This document shows positions 16,528-22,899 of a DNA stretch of 64,000 nt, piece by piece. The notes beneath the pieces are model-generated. The model saw only the letters and a program-made list of their open reading frames with translations, was not told where the DNA came from and did no database searches. How positions within the stretch are numbered: the stretch's first letter is position 1; each line of letters begins with the position of its first letter. Position numbers and translations under genes: made by a program. Origin of the DNA: Gammaproteobacteria bacterium (lineage in GTDB: Bacteria > Pseudomonadota > Gammaproteobacteria > GCA-001735895); the NCBI GenBank assembly GCA_029862005.1, contig JAOTYD010000004.1:62001-126000 (forward strand), read 5' to 3'.

Positions 16528-17400
16528 GTGTTTAAGAATAAGGATCCTTTATTTCTGCATCCCTATTTTCCCTTTGCCCTGCTTCTGTTTCTGGTGGTGC
16601 TGGGATTGATTCATGAGCAGTTGCAGGAAGCGATCCCTGCCTGGAACATAGAGACACCTGTCCGGTCCGAACTTGATCTAAAAATCGAGGATTCGGCAAC
16701 TGCGCTGGCGCAACAGGACCTTTCACTGGAGACCGGGCGCTACAGCATTGATATTTTACCCCTGTCGATAAGCCGGGGTGATTCGGAAATGAACAAGCTG
16801 TTAAGAGACAGTGATCAGTATGACTACCCGATTACTTACTGGTATTTCCACGACAACAAGCAGCTGATATACACGATGTCTGCTTCGGGCGTGGACGGCA
16901 AACAAAAGCTTGCCAATGTCTATCTCGAAGGCTACGAGCCTTTCCCCGTGGACAACGTGATGATCCCACTACTGGTATTATCCCAGCGTAAAAGTTACCA
17001 GCTTGATTCCATCCATTATTTTGGCAGGCAGGATGTCTGGCAGTCCAGTCGACAGGCGTATCTATATTCGCGCGGTGACTGTGAAGATCACGCATTGATT
17101 CTGGCGGACTGGCTGATTGCGATGGGGGAGGATGCTCGCGTCGTAGTCGGTACCTGGAATGGCGAAGGACATGCGTGGGTGTCACTGTTAAAAGACGGTC
17201 GGGAGTACCTTCTTGAGGCCACGAAAAAATCCGGTCTCGGTCGAAACAAACCTTATCCTCTGGCGAGCCTGCATACGGACTACGTGCCCGAGTATATGTT
17301 TAACGACCGGTACTTCTGGGTGAATACCGGTACCAAATACACTCCACGCTACGCTGAAATCGCCTGGGAAAAACGCAGCCGTTTCAACTATCTCGACTAG
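16528..17400 (+). CDS. Membrane-anchored transglutaminase-like protein
   Basis: A 290-residue protein with an N-terminal signal anchor (PYFPFALLLFLVVLGLIHEQL) and a long extracytoplasmic part. The C-terminal third carries the transglutaminase/papain-like triad pattern: Cys in SRGDCEDHALILADWL, His in GEGHAWVSL and an acidic residue in EYLLEATKK. It is therefore probably a periplasmic cysteine peptidase or amidase-like enzyme of the transglutaminase-like fold. The start is GTG at 16528. It is paired with the DUF350 gene; substrate unknown. Confidence 0.7.
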   Translation: MFKNKDPLFLHPYFPFALLLFLVVLGLIHEQLQEAIPAWNIETPVRSELDLKIEDSATALAQQDLSLETGRYSIDILPLSISRGDSEMNKLLRDSDQYDYPITYWYFHDNKQLIYTMSASGVDGKQKLANVYLEGYEPFPVDNVMIPLLVLSQRKSYQLDSIHYFGRQDVWQSSRQAYLYSRGDCEDHALILADWLIAMGEDARVVVGTWNGEGHAWVSLLKDGREYLLEATKKSGLGRNKPYPLASLHTDYVPEYMFNDRYFWVNTGTKYTPRYAEIAWEKRSRFNYLD

Positions 17401-17750
17401 GCACACCCGGGACCTTACCTCGTCTCGATTTCGAAATCCCGTTATTAGTCTGCACGAGTTTGTCTTCCCTAAAGGAGACGCTGGGGAGCATCTCCTAAGC
17501 TTCGGTGATCGGCCATAATCAGACGTTGGCTTTTGTGACGGACTGAGAGAGAGGTATTCATATCTTTCTCCAACTCTGCTGAATAGACTGATTCCGGTTT
17601 AAAACAGTAGTAACTAAGCAGCCATTTTTATTTCCGTAGACGATATTTTCCACGCCAAGGTAATCACTCACTTGGTTTCCCGCTTACACTTATGTCCAAA
17701 CAAGGCTTACTTCTTGTATTTAAAACTTTCACATTTAAAATATAACATGT
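17401..17750. other. 350-bp intergenic region without a gene
   Basis: No convincing coding frame. An imperfect inverted repeat is present (AGGAGA at about 17475 with TCTCCT at about 17493). The last 80 bp before the PhyH gene are AT-rich and could hold its promoter, but no clear -35/-10 pair is seen. Confidence 0.5.
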
Positions 17751-18611
17751 ATGAATAGTGACGTACTTCGCCCTATAACATCAGAACAGATTACAACCTA
17801 TCAACGTGACGGAGTTGTTCTGCTTCGAGGGTTGTTTGACCTGGAATGGATTGATCTGCTGGATAAGGGGCTGAACGCCAATTGCGAATATCCGACAGAC
17901 CGCTCGCGCGTGTGGGACCGGGACGCCGAGGGACGTACTATGTTTTGGGATAGCCAGGCATGGCAGGGTATCGACGAATACCGGCAGTTTATTTTTAATT
18001 CGCCCGCCGCCCGAATTGCCGGTGAGTTGATGAAGTCGACACATATCAACTTTTATTTTGATGCGGTATTTGTACGCTCCCCAGGCAGCCAGTTTGCTAC
18101 GCCCTGGCATCAGGACGAGCCTTATTGGTCTGTTGAGGGGTATGACACCTGCACGCTTTGGATGCCACTGGTTCCGGTCAAACGGGAAAACGCATTGGCT
18201 TACGTGCCCGGCTCTCACCGACTCGACTCCGTGTTTTACCAGTACAACTTCGGAGATCTAAATCCGGATGGCAAAACGACGGTTGACCAGGTCGATTTCT
18301 CGGGTATCGCTGAAACTGCGCTCCCAGACATTGATGCTGATCCCGAAAGTTTCGGTGTCGTAAACTGGGATATGCAACCTGGCGACTGTGTGGCTTTCAA
18401 CAGCCGGATTATACATGGCGGGTCGGGCAGACTTCACAAAGACACCGACTTGCGCGTGTTTACCACGAAGTGGCTAGGCGATGACGTACGCATCAAGTTC
18501 AGGGACTGTGGGATGGATCCAGATCACAGCGCCATCATGACAGAACATGGACTCAAGCCGGGTGACCGACCGGGAACAGACCTATACCCGCGGGTTTGGT
18601 CGCGAACATGA
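17751..18611 (+). CDS. Phytanoyl-CoA dioxygenase (PhyH) family protein
   Basis: An iron(II)/2-oxoglutarate-dependent oxygenase of 286 residues. The iron-binding facial triad is visible: the HxD pair in PWHQDEPYW (about residues 119-127) and the distal His in IIHGGSG (about 221). The 2-oxoglutarate-binding Arg follows in DLRVFTTKW. PhyH relatives hydroxylate lipids, ectoine-like osmolytes or phosphonates, and sequence alone does not tell which. The gene stands alone between two long non-coding stretches in an AT-richer neighbourhood, which suggests recent acquisition. Confidence 0.88.
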   Translation: MNSDVLRPITSEQITTYQRDGVVLLRGLFDLEWIDLLDKGLNANCEYPTDRSRVWDRDAEGRTMFWDSQAWQGIDEYRQFIFNSPAARIAGELMKSTHINFYFDAVFVRSPGSQFATPWHQDEPYWSVEGYDTCTLWMPLVPVKRENALAYVPGSHRLDSVFYQYNFGDLNPDGKTTVDQVDFSGIAETALPDIDADPESFGVVNWDMQPGDCVAFNSRIIHGGSGRLHKDTDLRVFTTKWLGDDVRIKFRDCGMDPDHSAIMTEHGLKPGDRPGTDLYPRVWSRT

Positions 18612-19186
18612 TCTTTCGAATTGGTCAAAATCAAATGGTAGTAGATACATTACCGTTAAGTTCGTGGCTTAAAAATCAGCCACACTAGAAAAGGTAATAT
18701 GCCACATAACAAGTTCATGCAGTCGGATTCACCACTCGCGCTGATACTGCTTTTTCTCCAGAGCTGACACTGAAACGCGTCTGCTTAGCTTCATTCTTCG
18801 GCCAGTTTCGAACTCCCAGCCTGAACAAAATCCCCCGCACCGTGGCGGGGCTTATGAGTTGAAAGATTAAATGGTTAAAATGTCTGAACAGCTCGGGCCG
18901 GTTCATGGGAAATCCGTAGAACTCTCTACTTGCATGCTCTCTCAAGAGGTCTTTGCGGAAACATACCTTCAACTATCGGTCCCGATACACCGACATTGCA
19001 TCAACAACGAGCGCGATTCGACGCATGCTACGATTTCGGTACCTAGGTGCCAGACATGGTATTTATTTTTCCTATCCTGCAACTGTTTCACGGCAAGACG
19101 CTTCCTTGATATTAACGCAGATGCTAACATCGAATCGAACATCGTTATTCACTGCTGACAATTACCAGAATAGTGATTTTCTATAA
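18612..19186. other. 575-bp stretch with no supported gene
   Basis: Only short overlapping frames of unlikely composition occur on both strands. There is a 6-bp hairpin (GTGGCT/AGCCAC, 18664-18683) shortly after the PhyH gene, without a T-run. A GC-rich stem (CCCCGC/GCGGGG) lies near 18832-18849. The stretch may be decayed coding DNA, since its base use lies between coding and AT-rich spacer, but I cannot name the ancestor. Confidence 0.5.
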
Positions 19187-20953
19187 ATGCTAAAAAGAAT
19201 AATCCCGCCTTTACTGTTCCTGGCTTTTGCCTGGTTCGTGGTTTCGAATGACGATGCCAAAACGATTATTGCCGGTATTGCTATATTTTTGATCGGCATG
19301 CACTACATGGAAGACGGCTTTAAGCTATTCAGTGGCGGAGCTCTGGAAAATATTCTGGAGAAATTTACCAGTACGACACTGAAGGCTATCGGTACCGGAT
19401 TTTTGGCGACAGCCGTCGTCCAGAGCTCTTCATTGGTTTCGGTCATCATTATTTCCTTTCTCTCTGCTGAACTCATAGGCCTGACACAGGCGGTAGGTGT
19501 TGTTTTCGGTTCTAATATCGGCACCACTGCCACGGCCTGGCTAGTCTCCGCTTTCGGCCTGAAAATTAAAATCGCCCACTATGCCTTACCCATGCTCATT
19601 TTTGGCGTGATCATGCAATTTTCCAAACATATTACCTACAAGGGCTTAGGCAGCGTTTTGATTGGACTGGGTTTTATTTTCCTGGGAATCGCATACATGA
19701 AAGAGGGTTTTGAAACCCTCAAGCAGGGACTGGACCTGGCAGAGTATGCAATGGCCGGTTACCTGGGTGTGTTTGTTTATATTCTTTTCGGTGCTATCGC
19801 CACAATTGTTATCCAGTCTAGCAGTGCAACCATGGCGATCATTATTACTGCGCTCGCTACCGGCCAGATCGACTATATCAATGCACTCTCCCTGGCGATA
19901 GGTGCGAACATCGGTACCACGGTAACCGCAGCACTCGGAGCCCTGGCATCTAATAAAAATGGTAAGCGCCTCGCAGTGGCGCATTTTATCTTCAATATTA
20001 TTACCGGCCTGTTTGCGGTGATATTTATCTACCAGTTAAAAGATCTGGTTGATTTTCTGGCCCCGCTTTTATTGATCTCGAGTAATGACGACGCCATGCG
20101 GCTGGCACTCTTCCATACCATTTTCAATGTGGCCGGAGTGCTGATTGTTGCACCATTTGTCGTATATCTGGTCCGCTACCTGGAAACCCTGTTTCGTGAA
20201 GAAGCCAGGGGCCGTGGTCGGGCAAAATATTTAACCAGTGAAGTGATGGAAATCCCGGCTACCGCGTTGGCCGCACTGCGGAAAGAAACCATTCACCTTT
20301 ATGACAAGTCACTGGAGGCTATTGTCCATGCAATGAATCTGCATCGTACCGAGATTTTTTCCGATGCCGATATCGATGAAGTCGTCGAGCATTCCAATGC
20401 ACCGATAAAAATTGATGTTGACAAGGTATATCAGCAGGAGCTCAAGAGCCTGTATGGAGAGATCATCCAGTATGCGTCGATTTCACAAAACTATATGGAC
20501 CAGGAGGGCAATAACGAAATATACGAGTTGAAATTAACCGCCAGAAATATAATTGAAATGGTAAAAGATGTAAGGGAACTACAAAGAAACCTGAATTTTT
20601 ATTCAAAAGGTCACAATACTGTCACAATCGAAGAGTATGATAAGTTGCGCGCGCAATTGATCGCTGTTTTACGCAAGATACAACATGTAAGAGAGTTTAC
20701 GGGTGACGAAGAAGACATCCTGACGGAGATCGAGGTTCAACGGGATATTGTAAACGAAAACGAAATCAAACTGAATCACGAAGTGGATTCATTGATCAGA
20801 GAAAATAAAATAGATCCAAATACGGCATCTTCCCTGATAAATGATATTGGTTTTGCCCATAGTATCAGCAAAAAACTTCTTAGTTCTGCTATTACATTAT
20901 GGGTGAAAGACCAGGAAATCAAAGAACTTGGGGATGAATATGGATACGAATGA
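19187..20953 (+). CDS. Na/Pi cotransporter family protein with PhoU-like C-terminus
   Basis: A 588-residue PNaS-family protein. Residues about 1-345 hold the membrane part with two copies of the characteristic QSSS-type repeat: TAVVQSSSLVSVIIISFL and TIVIQSSSATMAIIITAL, each followed by GSNIGTT or GANIGTT. Residues about 360-588 are a charged helical PhoU-like domain. It should bring in phosphate with sodium, or regulate phosphate flux, at the inner membrane. The last 14 nt overlap the following lysine-rich gene, so their translation is probably coupled. Confidence 0.9.
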   Translation: MLKRIIPPLLFLAFAWFVVSNDDAKTIIAGIAIFLIGMHYMEDGFKLFSGGALENILEKFTSTTLKAIGTGFLATAVVQSSSLVSVIIISFLSAELIGLTQAVGVVFGSNIGTTATAWLVSAFGLKIKIAHYALPMLIFGVIMQFSKHITYKGLGSVLIGLGFIFLGIAYMKEGFETLKQGLDLAEYAMAGYLGVFVYILFGAIATIVIQSSSATMAIIITALATGQIDYINALSLAIGANIGTTVTAALGALASNKNGKRLAVAHFIFNIITGLFAVIFIYQLKDLVDFLAPLLLISSNDDAMRLALFHTIFNVAGVLIVAPFVVYLVRYLETLFREEARGRGRAKYLTSEVMEIPATALAALRKETIHLYDKSLEAIVHAMNLHRTEIFSDADIDEVVEHSNAPIKIDVDKVYQQELKSLYGEIIQYASISQNYMDQEGNNEIYELKLTARNIIEMVKDVRELQRNLNFYSKGHNTVTIEEYDKLRAQLIAVLRKIQHVREFTGDEEDILTEIEVQRDIVNENEIKLNHEVDSLIRENKIDPNTASSLINDIGFAHSISKKLLSSAITLWVKDQEIKELGDEYGYE

Positions 20954-21191
20954 CATCGTAAATAAGCTGGAAGATTTTTTTGATTTATCGAAAAAGAAGA
21001 AGAAGAAAAAACATGAAAAGTTATTAAAAATAATTAAAAAGCTGGAAAAAAAGAAATCCGATCTTGAGGTTGAGATTGTAGAAGAAAGTAAAAACAATGA
21101 AACTAGCACCCGGTATCATGATTTGAGCCAGGAACTGAAAATCATCTCCAAGCTTATCAGGAAAGCAAAGAAGCAGGACCGGGCTATCTAG
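20940..21191 (+). CDS. Lysine-rich coiled-coil small protein
   Basis: About 83 residues if started at ATG 20940 (ATG 20934 and TTG 20928 are also in frame). It overlaps the end of the Na/Pi gene. A run of seven lysines (SKKKKKKKHEKL, about residues 17-28) is followed by a heptad-like charged helix (LLKIIKKLEKKKSDLEVEIVEE). It is probably a cytosolic helical partner of the transporter or its PhoU-like domain, judged only from the overlap. The A-rich lysine codons are a potential slippage site. The frame ends with TAG and continues open after it (see the 21192-21311 entry). Confidence 0.6.
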   Translation: MDTNDIVNKLEDFFDLSKKKKKKKHEKLLKIIKKLEKKKSDLEVEIVEESKNNETSTRYHDLSQELKIISKLIRKAKKQDRAI

Positions 21192-21311
21192 CCAGCAATA
21201 ACCAACCCGTTTTTCTCTGGGCATCAGGCGAAATCAGAGTCATCAATAATTGCACTGTTCGGTCTCGGGGTTTTGGGGCTCGGGTTTTCTCGACGCAGAA
21301 AACGCAACTAA
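21192..21311 (+). pseudogene. Orphan PEP-CTERM-like sorting tail, no start codon
   Basis: In the frame of the preceding lysine-rich gene and directly after its TAG stop, 39 codons stay open to TAA at 21309. They encode SSIIALFGLGVLGLGFSRRR and a few more basic residues, the hydrophobic helix plus arginine cluster typical of PEP-CTERM exosortase signals, though the proline-containing VPEP part is missing. Without a start codon it is most likely the last remnant of a deleted exported protein. Confidence 0.45.
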
Positions 21312-21334
21312 TAATCAACAAATGAGATAAATAT

Positions 21335-21362
21335 AAAAGCCATCTCGATTAAGATGGCTTTT
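21335..21362. terminator. Bidirectional intrinsic terminator
   Basis: A perfect 11-bp stem (AAAAGCCATCT with AGATGGCTTTT, loop of 6) has T-rich sequence on both exits. It separates the Na/Pi operon from the convergent LysM protein gene and can serve both. Confidence 0.85.
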
Positions 21363-21430
21363 ATGGGTGTCCGCATTGGGTCGGTAGCGGAAGCTGAACT
21401 TTAAGTTTTGAGTGTCACCTAAATGGGAAA

Positions 21431-22645
21431 CTAAAATTTCCAGCTGTAATAAAGTTCGGCTCGTGATGCATCAAATGATTCACCGCTATCTTCCTCTTCA
21501 ATATCCAGAGAGGTGTAACTAAGCCCCCAACCAACCAGATCACCGTCGCCAATATTCTCCAGATACACAACCAGGCCATTTGCCGCATCGTATTTGATCG
21601 TGGAATCATCTTCGATCTTTGCGCCCTGATGGAAAACAACACCGATACCGTAAAGAAACGGATTCGCCCGATATTGATACGCCAATTGCAAATAGGTGTC
21701 TCGTAAAGTTACGCCGTCGCTCGTCCGACCGTATTGAAGACCGAGCGCTGCACGATAGCCGCCAGCCTGTTGATAGATTGGCTCATAACCCAGGCGCAAA
21801 TGGCCGCCAGCGCCCGCAGGGTCGTACGAACCATCTTCATATTCCAGCTTGTCTCCACCGAAAGAGTAACCAAGACTTAATACAAAATTGCCATCCTCGC
21901 CAAACAGGGAAAAAGCGAATGGTTCTTTCTTCACCTGGCTTTCCCCCTCCGGCTCCTCCTCCGGCTCCTTCTTCGGAACGGGCGCAACTTCGCGCGACGT
22001 TGCGGGCTCCGGCTTTATAACTACTTTGGGTGGCGCGGCTTTGGGTGGCGCGGCTTTGGGTGCTACATAATCGGGCAGTTTAAGTACAACACCGACGGCC
22101 ATATTATTCGCTCCATTGGCGAATACGGAGGGATTCAGCTTGATGATATCCTGCCTTAACCGTGCCTGTTTACTGGCATCCCCCGGGTAAACTGCGCGAG
22201 CGATCGCATATAGTGTATCGCCCCGCTTCACTTTCCATTCAGTGCCGCTCACTTTTGTCTTTCCCTGAATACCGGTACCTGTCTGGTCAGAAGTTGGCTT
22301 GGCTGGTTTACTGATATCTGTGGCTGCTTTCTGGGCCGGAGTAGTATCAGCTTGGCGGGCATCTTCGGTTGGTTGAGGGGGAGCAGGATCGATTATTTTG
22401 CAGCCCGGCAAGTTACACTGCCGCACACAGATACGTGCATCGGGCACCGTGATGGTGCCATCTGCGTCAGCATCGCGGGGATCGTCCGGTCCGCTAGCCG
22501 GTTTATTACGTGCGCTGACGATCAACCGCAGGTCCCGGCGATCCACGTCACCGTCTGTATCGACATCACAAACAGCAGCGCTTGCCAGGCTGGAAAATCC
22601 CATTGAAAGACAGGCCAGAAATATGGCAACCGTGCTACTACGCAT
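21431..22645 (-). CDS. Dockerin-like, LysM and outer-membrane beta-barrel fusion protein
   Basis: A 404-residue exported protein. In order: a signal peptide (about 1-23, ending ASA); two calcium-loop repeats of dockerin type I style (DVDTDGDVDRRD at about 27-38 and DADADGTITVPD at about 60-71) each near cysteines; a linker; a LysM-like domain (WKVKRGDTLYAIARAVYPGD, about 136-190, of the FimV kind); a proline/lysine/glutamate linker with a duplicated AAPPK unit; and from about 250 on an aromatic-rich beta pattern ending in the terminal Phe (YYSWKF) expected of an outer-membrane barrel. It could tie the outer membrane to peptidoglycan. The combination is unusual. Confidence 0.7.
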   Translation of the reverse strand: MRSSTVAIFLACLSMGFSSLASAAVCDVDTDGDVDRRDLRLIVSARNKPASGPDDPRDADADGTITVPDARICVRQCNLPGCKIIDPAPPQPTEDARQADTTPAQKAATDISKPAKPTSDQTGTGIQGKTKVSGTEWKVKRGDTLYAIARAVYPGDASKQARLRQDIIKLNPSVFANGANNMAVGVVLKLPDYVAPKAAPPKAAPPKVVIKPEPATSREVAPVPKKEPEEEPEGESQVKKEPFAFSLFGEDGNFVLSLGYSFGGDKLEYEDGSYDPAGAGGHLRLGYEPIYQQAGGYRAALGLQYGRTSDGVTLRDTYLQLAYQYRANPFLYGIGVVFHQGAKIEDDSTIKYDAANGLVVYLENIGDGDLVGWGLSYTSLDIEEEDSGESFDASRAELYYSWKF

Positions 22646-22899
22646 GAGAAATTTTTTTACGTAATTTCATTTTTATCCTTGTAGCGCCTAAGTTACCTCT
22701 AATGGCAGGACAACTACAAACATAAATTTGATGTAAGCCAGGTTATCGACGTAAATTCTTGATGCCGATCAACAGTTGCAGGTAAGTTTTCCCGTTCGCG
22801 TCTGCTTCTGGATTACTTTTGCCAGATTTCACGAACCAATATTTTATACAAAACACCAATCCCGACCACGGGAACAACCGCGCCGAGATAGCCAATAAT

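Follow-up and report, generated by a model that had tools for sequence, protein, structure and literature searches.

A 404-residue protein encoded in the window, by which we mean the whole 64,000-nucleotide stretch of DNA analysed here, appears to join known parts in a new combination that was found in only one genus, and for which we infer a function. A signal peptide is followed by a dockerin-like calcium module, a FimV-type LysM domain and a small C-terminal barrel (Table 1). We read this protein, with a probability of about 0.62, as a peptidoglycan tether of an outer-membrane barrel of OmpX/OmpA size, whose N-terminal domains would be periplasmic and whose dockerin-like module would serve as a cap and not as a cohesin dock. 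The initial annotation had pointed to two DxDxDG loops near Cys residues, a FimV-like LysM domain, a Pro/Lys/Glu linker, and a beta-rich C-terminus ending in Phe, and all of these features are borne out by the sequence and its conservation.

Table 1. Positions of the gene, its start signal and the domains of its product in the window.
Feature	Coordinates	Strand	Basis
Whole gene, 404 aa: signal peptide, dockerin-like module, LysM, barrel	21431..22645	-	ORF and orthologues
Signal peptide, residues 1-24, cleavage most likely ASA|AVC	22574..22645	-	Read from sequence
Dockerin-like double calcium-loop module, residues 26-82, Cys 26, 73, 77 and 82	22400..22570	-	PF00404 and invariant ligands
Calcium loop 1, residues 27-38	22532..22567	-	Invariant D27, D29, D31, D35, D38
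Calcium loop 2, residues 58-69	22439..22474	-	Invariant D58, D60, D62, D69
Linker 1, residues 83-134, weakly constrained	22244..22399	-	dN close to dS
FimV-type LysM, about residues 135-193	22067..22243	-	Profile scores, AlphaFold2, lowest dN/dS
Pro/Lys/Glu linker, residues 194-252, length differs among orthologues	21890..22066	-	Orthologue comparison, dN/dS
Predicted C-terminal 8-strand outer-membrane barrel, residues 253-404	21434..21889	-	Homology and models
Conserved AGGA...ATG start signal 5' of the gene, window frame off by one base	22668..22679	-	Orthologue comparison

Gene boundaries and genomic context

A conserved start lies upstream of ATG 22645 and is out of frame with it. This upstream ATG (22668-22670), with its Shine-Dalgarno-like AGGA, is kept in two orthologues (L029 and L031). 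In the window (22650-22670, minus strand) the start codon is one base out of frame and adjoins a run of seven A residues. Either the window lineage now starts at ATG 22645 or the assembly carries a homopolymer error, so the protein may begin slightly away from the N-terminus given here. A signal peptide is present under both readings. A lipoprotein reading of C26 was ruled out: the residue at -1 is V, there is no lipobox, and the same Cys is also conserved where copies of the module are C-terminal.

Sequence searches of solved structures with the whole protein and with the barrel profile gave no match, no RNA families were found in the region of the gene, and no plasmid or viral relatives of the protein were found. 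A RapA-like neighbour was considered as an operon partner and rejected, as this arrangement is common to the nearest relative only and the other orthologues sit elsewhere. Positions 17400-21430 hold PhyH-like dioxygenase-looking, Na/Pi cotransporter-like and lysine-rich ORFs; the genes that flank this region have no such segment between them in the nearest relative (L029). An orphan tail on the plus strand (21234-21311; ...SESSIIALFGLGVLGLGFSRRRKRN followed by a stop) resembles the end of a PEP-CTERM sorting signal, lacks both a start codon and the PEP motif, and was not seen in the matching region of L029; it is probably a gene remnant.

Conservation of the domain order

Within a set of 31 genomes of the genus, five besides that of the window encode full-length orthologues with 63-80% identity. 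The gene is dispensable in the genus, since it was not seen in the other 25 of these genomes, some of which are incomplete. The order of domains is the same in all six proteins, as are all nine Asp ligands of the calcium loops and all four Cys residues. Because the five orthologues keep the whole order, the ligands and the Cys residues, the architecture is not a product of chance, and the initial annotation's expectation that relatives would keep the order holds.

Pairwise dN/dS comparisons place the strongest constraint on LysM (dN 0.02-0.11 against dS 0.3-0.8), while the calcium module and the barrel are also clearly constrained. In linker 1, dN nears dS in many pairs, and the second linker is intermediate. 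These values indicate that purifying selection acts on the three domains and far less on the linkers, a pattern that points to three folded units joined by two flexible linkers.

In the collections searched, only members of this genus showed the order of dockerin-like module, LysM and small barrel. One search covered 84,980 species genomes by peptide pattern and detects only close relatives, which means that more distant copies may have escaped it. Among the four papers found that join dockerin, LysM and barrel, none describes this architecture in its title or abstract. The statement in the initial annotation that no named family has this order is thus true for the libraries searched, although the partial order of LysM followed by a barrel is known from intimin and YeeJ.

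The C-terminal domain as a predicted outer-membrane barrel

The last 152 residues make up a beta-rich stretch that ends in ...AELYYSWKF. A direct Pfam search with the window barrel yielded nothing convincing and no match to PF13505. Stand-alone secreted proteins of about 190 amino acids emerged from a profile search of the class, and the profile of the window barrel and its orthologues aligns with that of this stand-alone family over 150 columns (hhalign 98.3%, E 2.4e-14). This GGD-motif family, for which no NCBIfam name was found, is common in the class: an extended search recovered it in 24 of 274 class genomes, including the genome of the window, where a paralogue resides at G000:C13:85076-85576 (L105). 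Of five family members tested, three exceed the PF13505 OMP_b-brl cut-off with matches that span almost the whole protein, and two fall below it; the homology of the window barrel to PF13505 is thus indirect, through the stand-alone family.

Structural models are consistent with this homology. AlphaFold2 yields eight long strands for the barrel alone (mean pLDDT 62.7) and eight barrel strands in the full protein (pLDDT 43), a low confidence that reflects the availability of only five usable related sequences. The best structural matches of the barrel model are mostly 8-strand barrels (OmpA, NspA, OmpW, Ail, OmpX and PagL). Their Z values of 6-7 to 8-strand outer-membrane proteins are suggestive rather than strong, as a common arrangement of strands can give such values. 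The barrel fold proposed in the initial annotation was therefore recovered by modelling, at modest confidence, and no non-barrel fold was obtained.

If the domain were instead a periplasmic beta-barrel or a lipocalin-like domain fused to LysM, it would not be inserted in the membrane. The presence of some soluble beta proteins in the structural lists fits such a domain, as does the weak result of the alternation test, in which in/out alternation in the predicted strands is only slightly above that of shuffled sequences (p 0.08). Lipocalin-like and tailspike folds appear solely among the weak structural matches and were rejected as candidates. We nevertheless judge a soluble barrel to be improbable, given that some homologues pass the OMP_b-brl cut-off over nearly their full length, that the top structural matches are mostly outer-membrane proteins, and that the C-terminus reads W-x-F, as in Bam substrates. 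The signs of a putative outer-membrane location are the signal peptide and the C-terminal Phe. We conclude, mostly on homology, that the C-terminus is a predicted 8-strand outer-membrane barrel.

The LysM domain

Among the profiles, the LysM of the window protein is nearest to the FimV type. It matches TIGR03505 FimV_core with an E value of 3.9e-5 and a score of 23.4, which is below the cut-off of 43.45. With PF01476 it scores 17.3 bits for the protein alone, against a cut-off of 20.9, and 21.4 bits with its frame neighbours. The AlphaFold2 model has the beta-alpha-alpha-beta fold of LysM (E136-138, H145-152, H157-170 and E187-189/E193-196). No other part of the full-length prediction is modelled as well: pLDDT is mostly 70-78 here, and 57-63 in two blocks of 10 residues. 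Peptidoglycan binding has been shown for the LysM domains of YeeJ (PMC5595812) and FimV (PMC5285504), and the domain in the window protein may bind in the same way. Several congeners also encode proteins of about 340 amino acids or longer (L010, L012, L016, L021, L025 and L027) in which a FimV-like LysM is followed by a FecR-looking domain.

The dockerin-like module as a candidate terminal cap

The window module scores 20.0 bits with PF00404 alone, against a cut-off of 22.9, and 24.2 bits in frame context; all six orthologues match this family at E<=0.01 (best 1e-5). The two calcium loops with conserved ligands that mark dockerin type I are found in the six orthologues. Each loop comprises 12 residues and is followed by a predicted helix, and the two are about 31 residues apart (D27-V-D29-T-D31-G-D-V-D35-R-R-D38 and D58-A-D60-A-D62-G-T-I-T66-V-P-D69). 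A profile of the module gave weak matches to solved structures, all of which are EF-hand proteins or dockerins, whereas NCBIfam models gave no match to the modules and Pfam scores of isolated modules are below cut-off. The invariance of the ligands makes calcium binding by the module likely.

A profile search of class and phylum samples found the module in about 3%, usually with one or two copies in each genome that has it. In most carriers, which are secreted proteins, it occupies the extreme C-terminus or immediately follows the signal peptide, and in two matches it is internal. The carriers (L054-L079, L009 and L033) are diverse, unrelated secreted gammaproteobacterial proteins, and some look like extracellular nucleases. 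The word dockerin is absent from the paper on the nuclease ExeM. A comparison of 27 modules found the first Cys accompanied by the second in 16 and both missing in 11, with neither ever present alone (0/0; Fisher p 8e-8, which is indicative because the test ignores kinship among modules). The C-x4-C pair is kept in all but one of the 27, and a two-Cys variant with C-x4-C only also exists. From this paired presence and absence, disulphides C26-C73 and C77-C82 are predicted.

The initial annotation had proposed that the protein offers a calcium-dependent docking module. The calcium-binding part of this proposal is likely, as set out above, but docking in the cellulosome sense is unsupported, because the search for cohesin (PF00963) that the annotation suggested found none in the 31 genomes of the genus, with the control found in Methanosarcina, and because the genome of the window holds a single dockerin match. 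It might still be argued that the module is a true calcium-dependent dock for an unrecognised periplasmic partner or secreted protein, and the protein a scaffold anchor, given that both loops are complete and invariant, that cohesin-like folds can escape sequence searches, and that the module is common to many secreted proteins and usually terminal, as a docking tag would be. We consider this unlikely: one dockerin match in its own genome means that there is no set of clients, module-bearing genomes in general usually hold only one or two copies, and the disulphide-forming Cys residues suggest a role in stability. Moreover, an even-stranded barrel would put the N-terminus in the periplasm, which would keep the module from being presented on the cell surface.

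The module, which recurs at the termini of unrelated secreted proteins, is better explained as a terminal cap stabilised by calcium and disulphides than as a dock. More speculatively, and with a low likelihood in our estimation, the four-Cys module might be an uncharacterised terminal tag on secreted proteins of many Gammaproteobacteria that has a calcium-dependent partner other than cohesin. Placed here in the periplasm on a wall-tethered barrel, it might trap such a partner, or else an exported client, at the outer membrane.

A proposed tether between the outer membrane and the wall

Under the wall-tether reading that we favour, Sec would export the protein, and Bam would fold its C-terminal ~150 residues into an 8-strand OMP_b-brl barrel. 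Everything N-terminal of the barrel would remain periplasmic, as expected for a barrel with an even number of strands whose C-terminus carries the periplasmic Bam signal. The FimV-type LysM, on a flexible Pro/Lys/Glu linker of about 60 residues, could then reach the wall and bind peptidoglycan, and would thereby tether the barrel and the outer membrane to the wall. The dockerin-like module would form a calcium-loaded cap with two disulphides, kept folded by calcium and the oxidising environment, that stabilises or protects the free N-terminus and may contact another envelope component. The link between wall and outer membrane suggested in the initial annotation is thus supported by the anatomy of the protein, namely OMP_b-brl homology, eight predicted strands and LysM.

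If this reading is right, a small barrel with an N-terminal LysM would join OmpA, Lpp, Pal and intimin among the means by which the outer membrane is fastened to peptidoglycan. The window protein also brings to notice an uncurated four-Cys dockerin-like module that recurs at the termini of proteins secreted by Gammaproteobacteria. Annotation would tend to label this module 'dockerin', which hints at cellulosome-like docking where cohesin is absent.

Comparison with known systems

The module differs from dockerin type I (PF00404) in its four Cys residues, its C-x4-C tail, its placement as a terminal cap, and the lack of a cohesin partner in the 31 genomes of the genus. The window protein appears to share its LysM subtype (TIGR03505 core) with FimV/HubP, a polar landmark that sits in the inner membrane and extends into the cytoplasm. 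The inner-membrane helix and cytoplasmic TPR part are not found in its 404 residues, as the models give no helix after LysM and a beta C-terminus, and the FimV-like protein of the same genome is separate (L002). The stand-alone OMP_b-brl members of Gammaproteobacteria (~190 aa) resemble the window barrel in their GGD-L...AG...G...YTS-D motifs and, in most, a C-terminal aromatic residue. In these relatives the signal peptide leads directly into the barrel, and none was seen with the LysM or dockerin-like domains of the window protein.

Intimin has a 12-strand barrel and a C-terminal surface passenger. The window protein would share with intimin and YeeJ a periplasmic LysM N-terminal to an outer-membrane barrel, and it could accordingly be viewed as an inverse autotransporter-like (type Ve) adhesin in which the barrel loops act as the surface adhesin. 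The order of signal peptide, LysM and barrel is as in these proteins, and the intimin barrel is among the Foldseek matches. However, the window barrel has about 150 residues and eight predicted strands rather than twelve, it has its homologues in the stand-alone OMP_b-brl-like family, and the protein ends in Phe with the last barrel strand, which leaves no passenger. We regard such an adhesin as highly improbable.

OmpA, which comprises an 8-strand barrel, a linker and a peptidoglycan-binding domain, resembles the proposed wall tether in linking a barrel to a domain that binds peptidoglycan, and in tethering. The binding domain of OmpA is C-terminal and has the OmpA-like fold, whereas the window protein has an N-terminal LysM.
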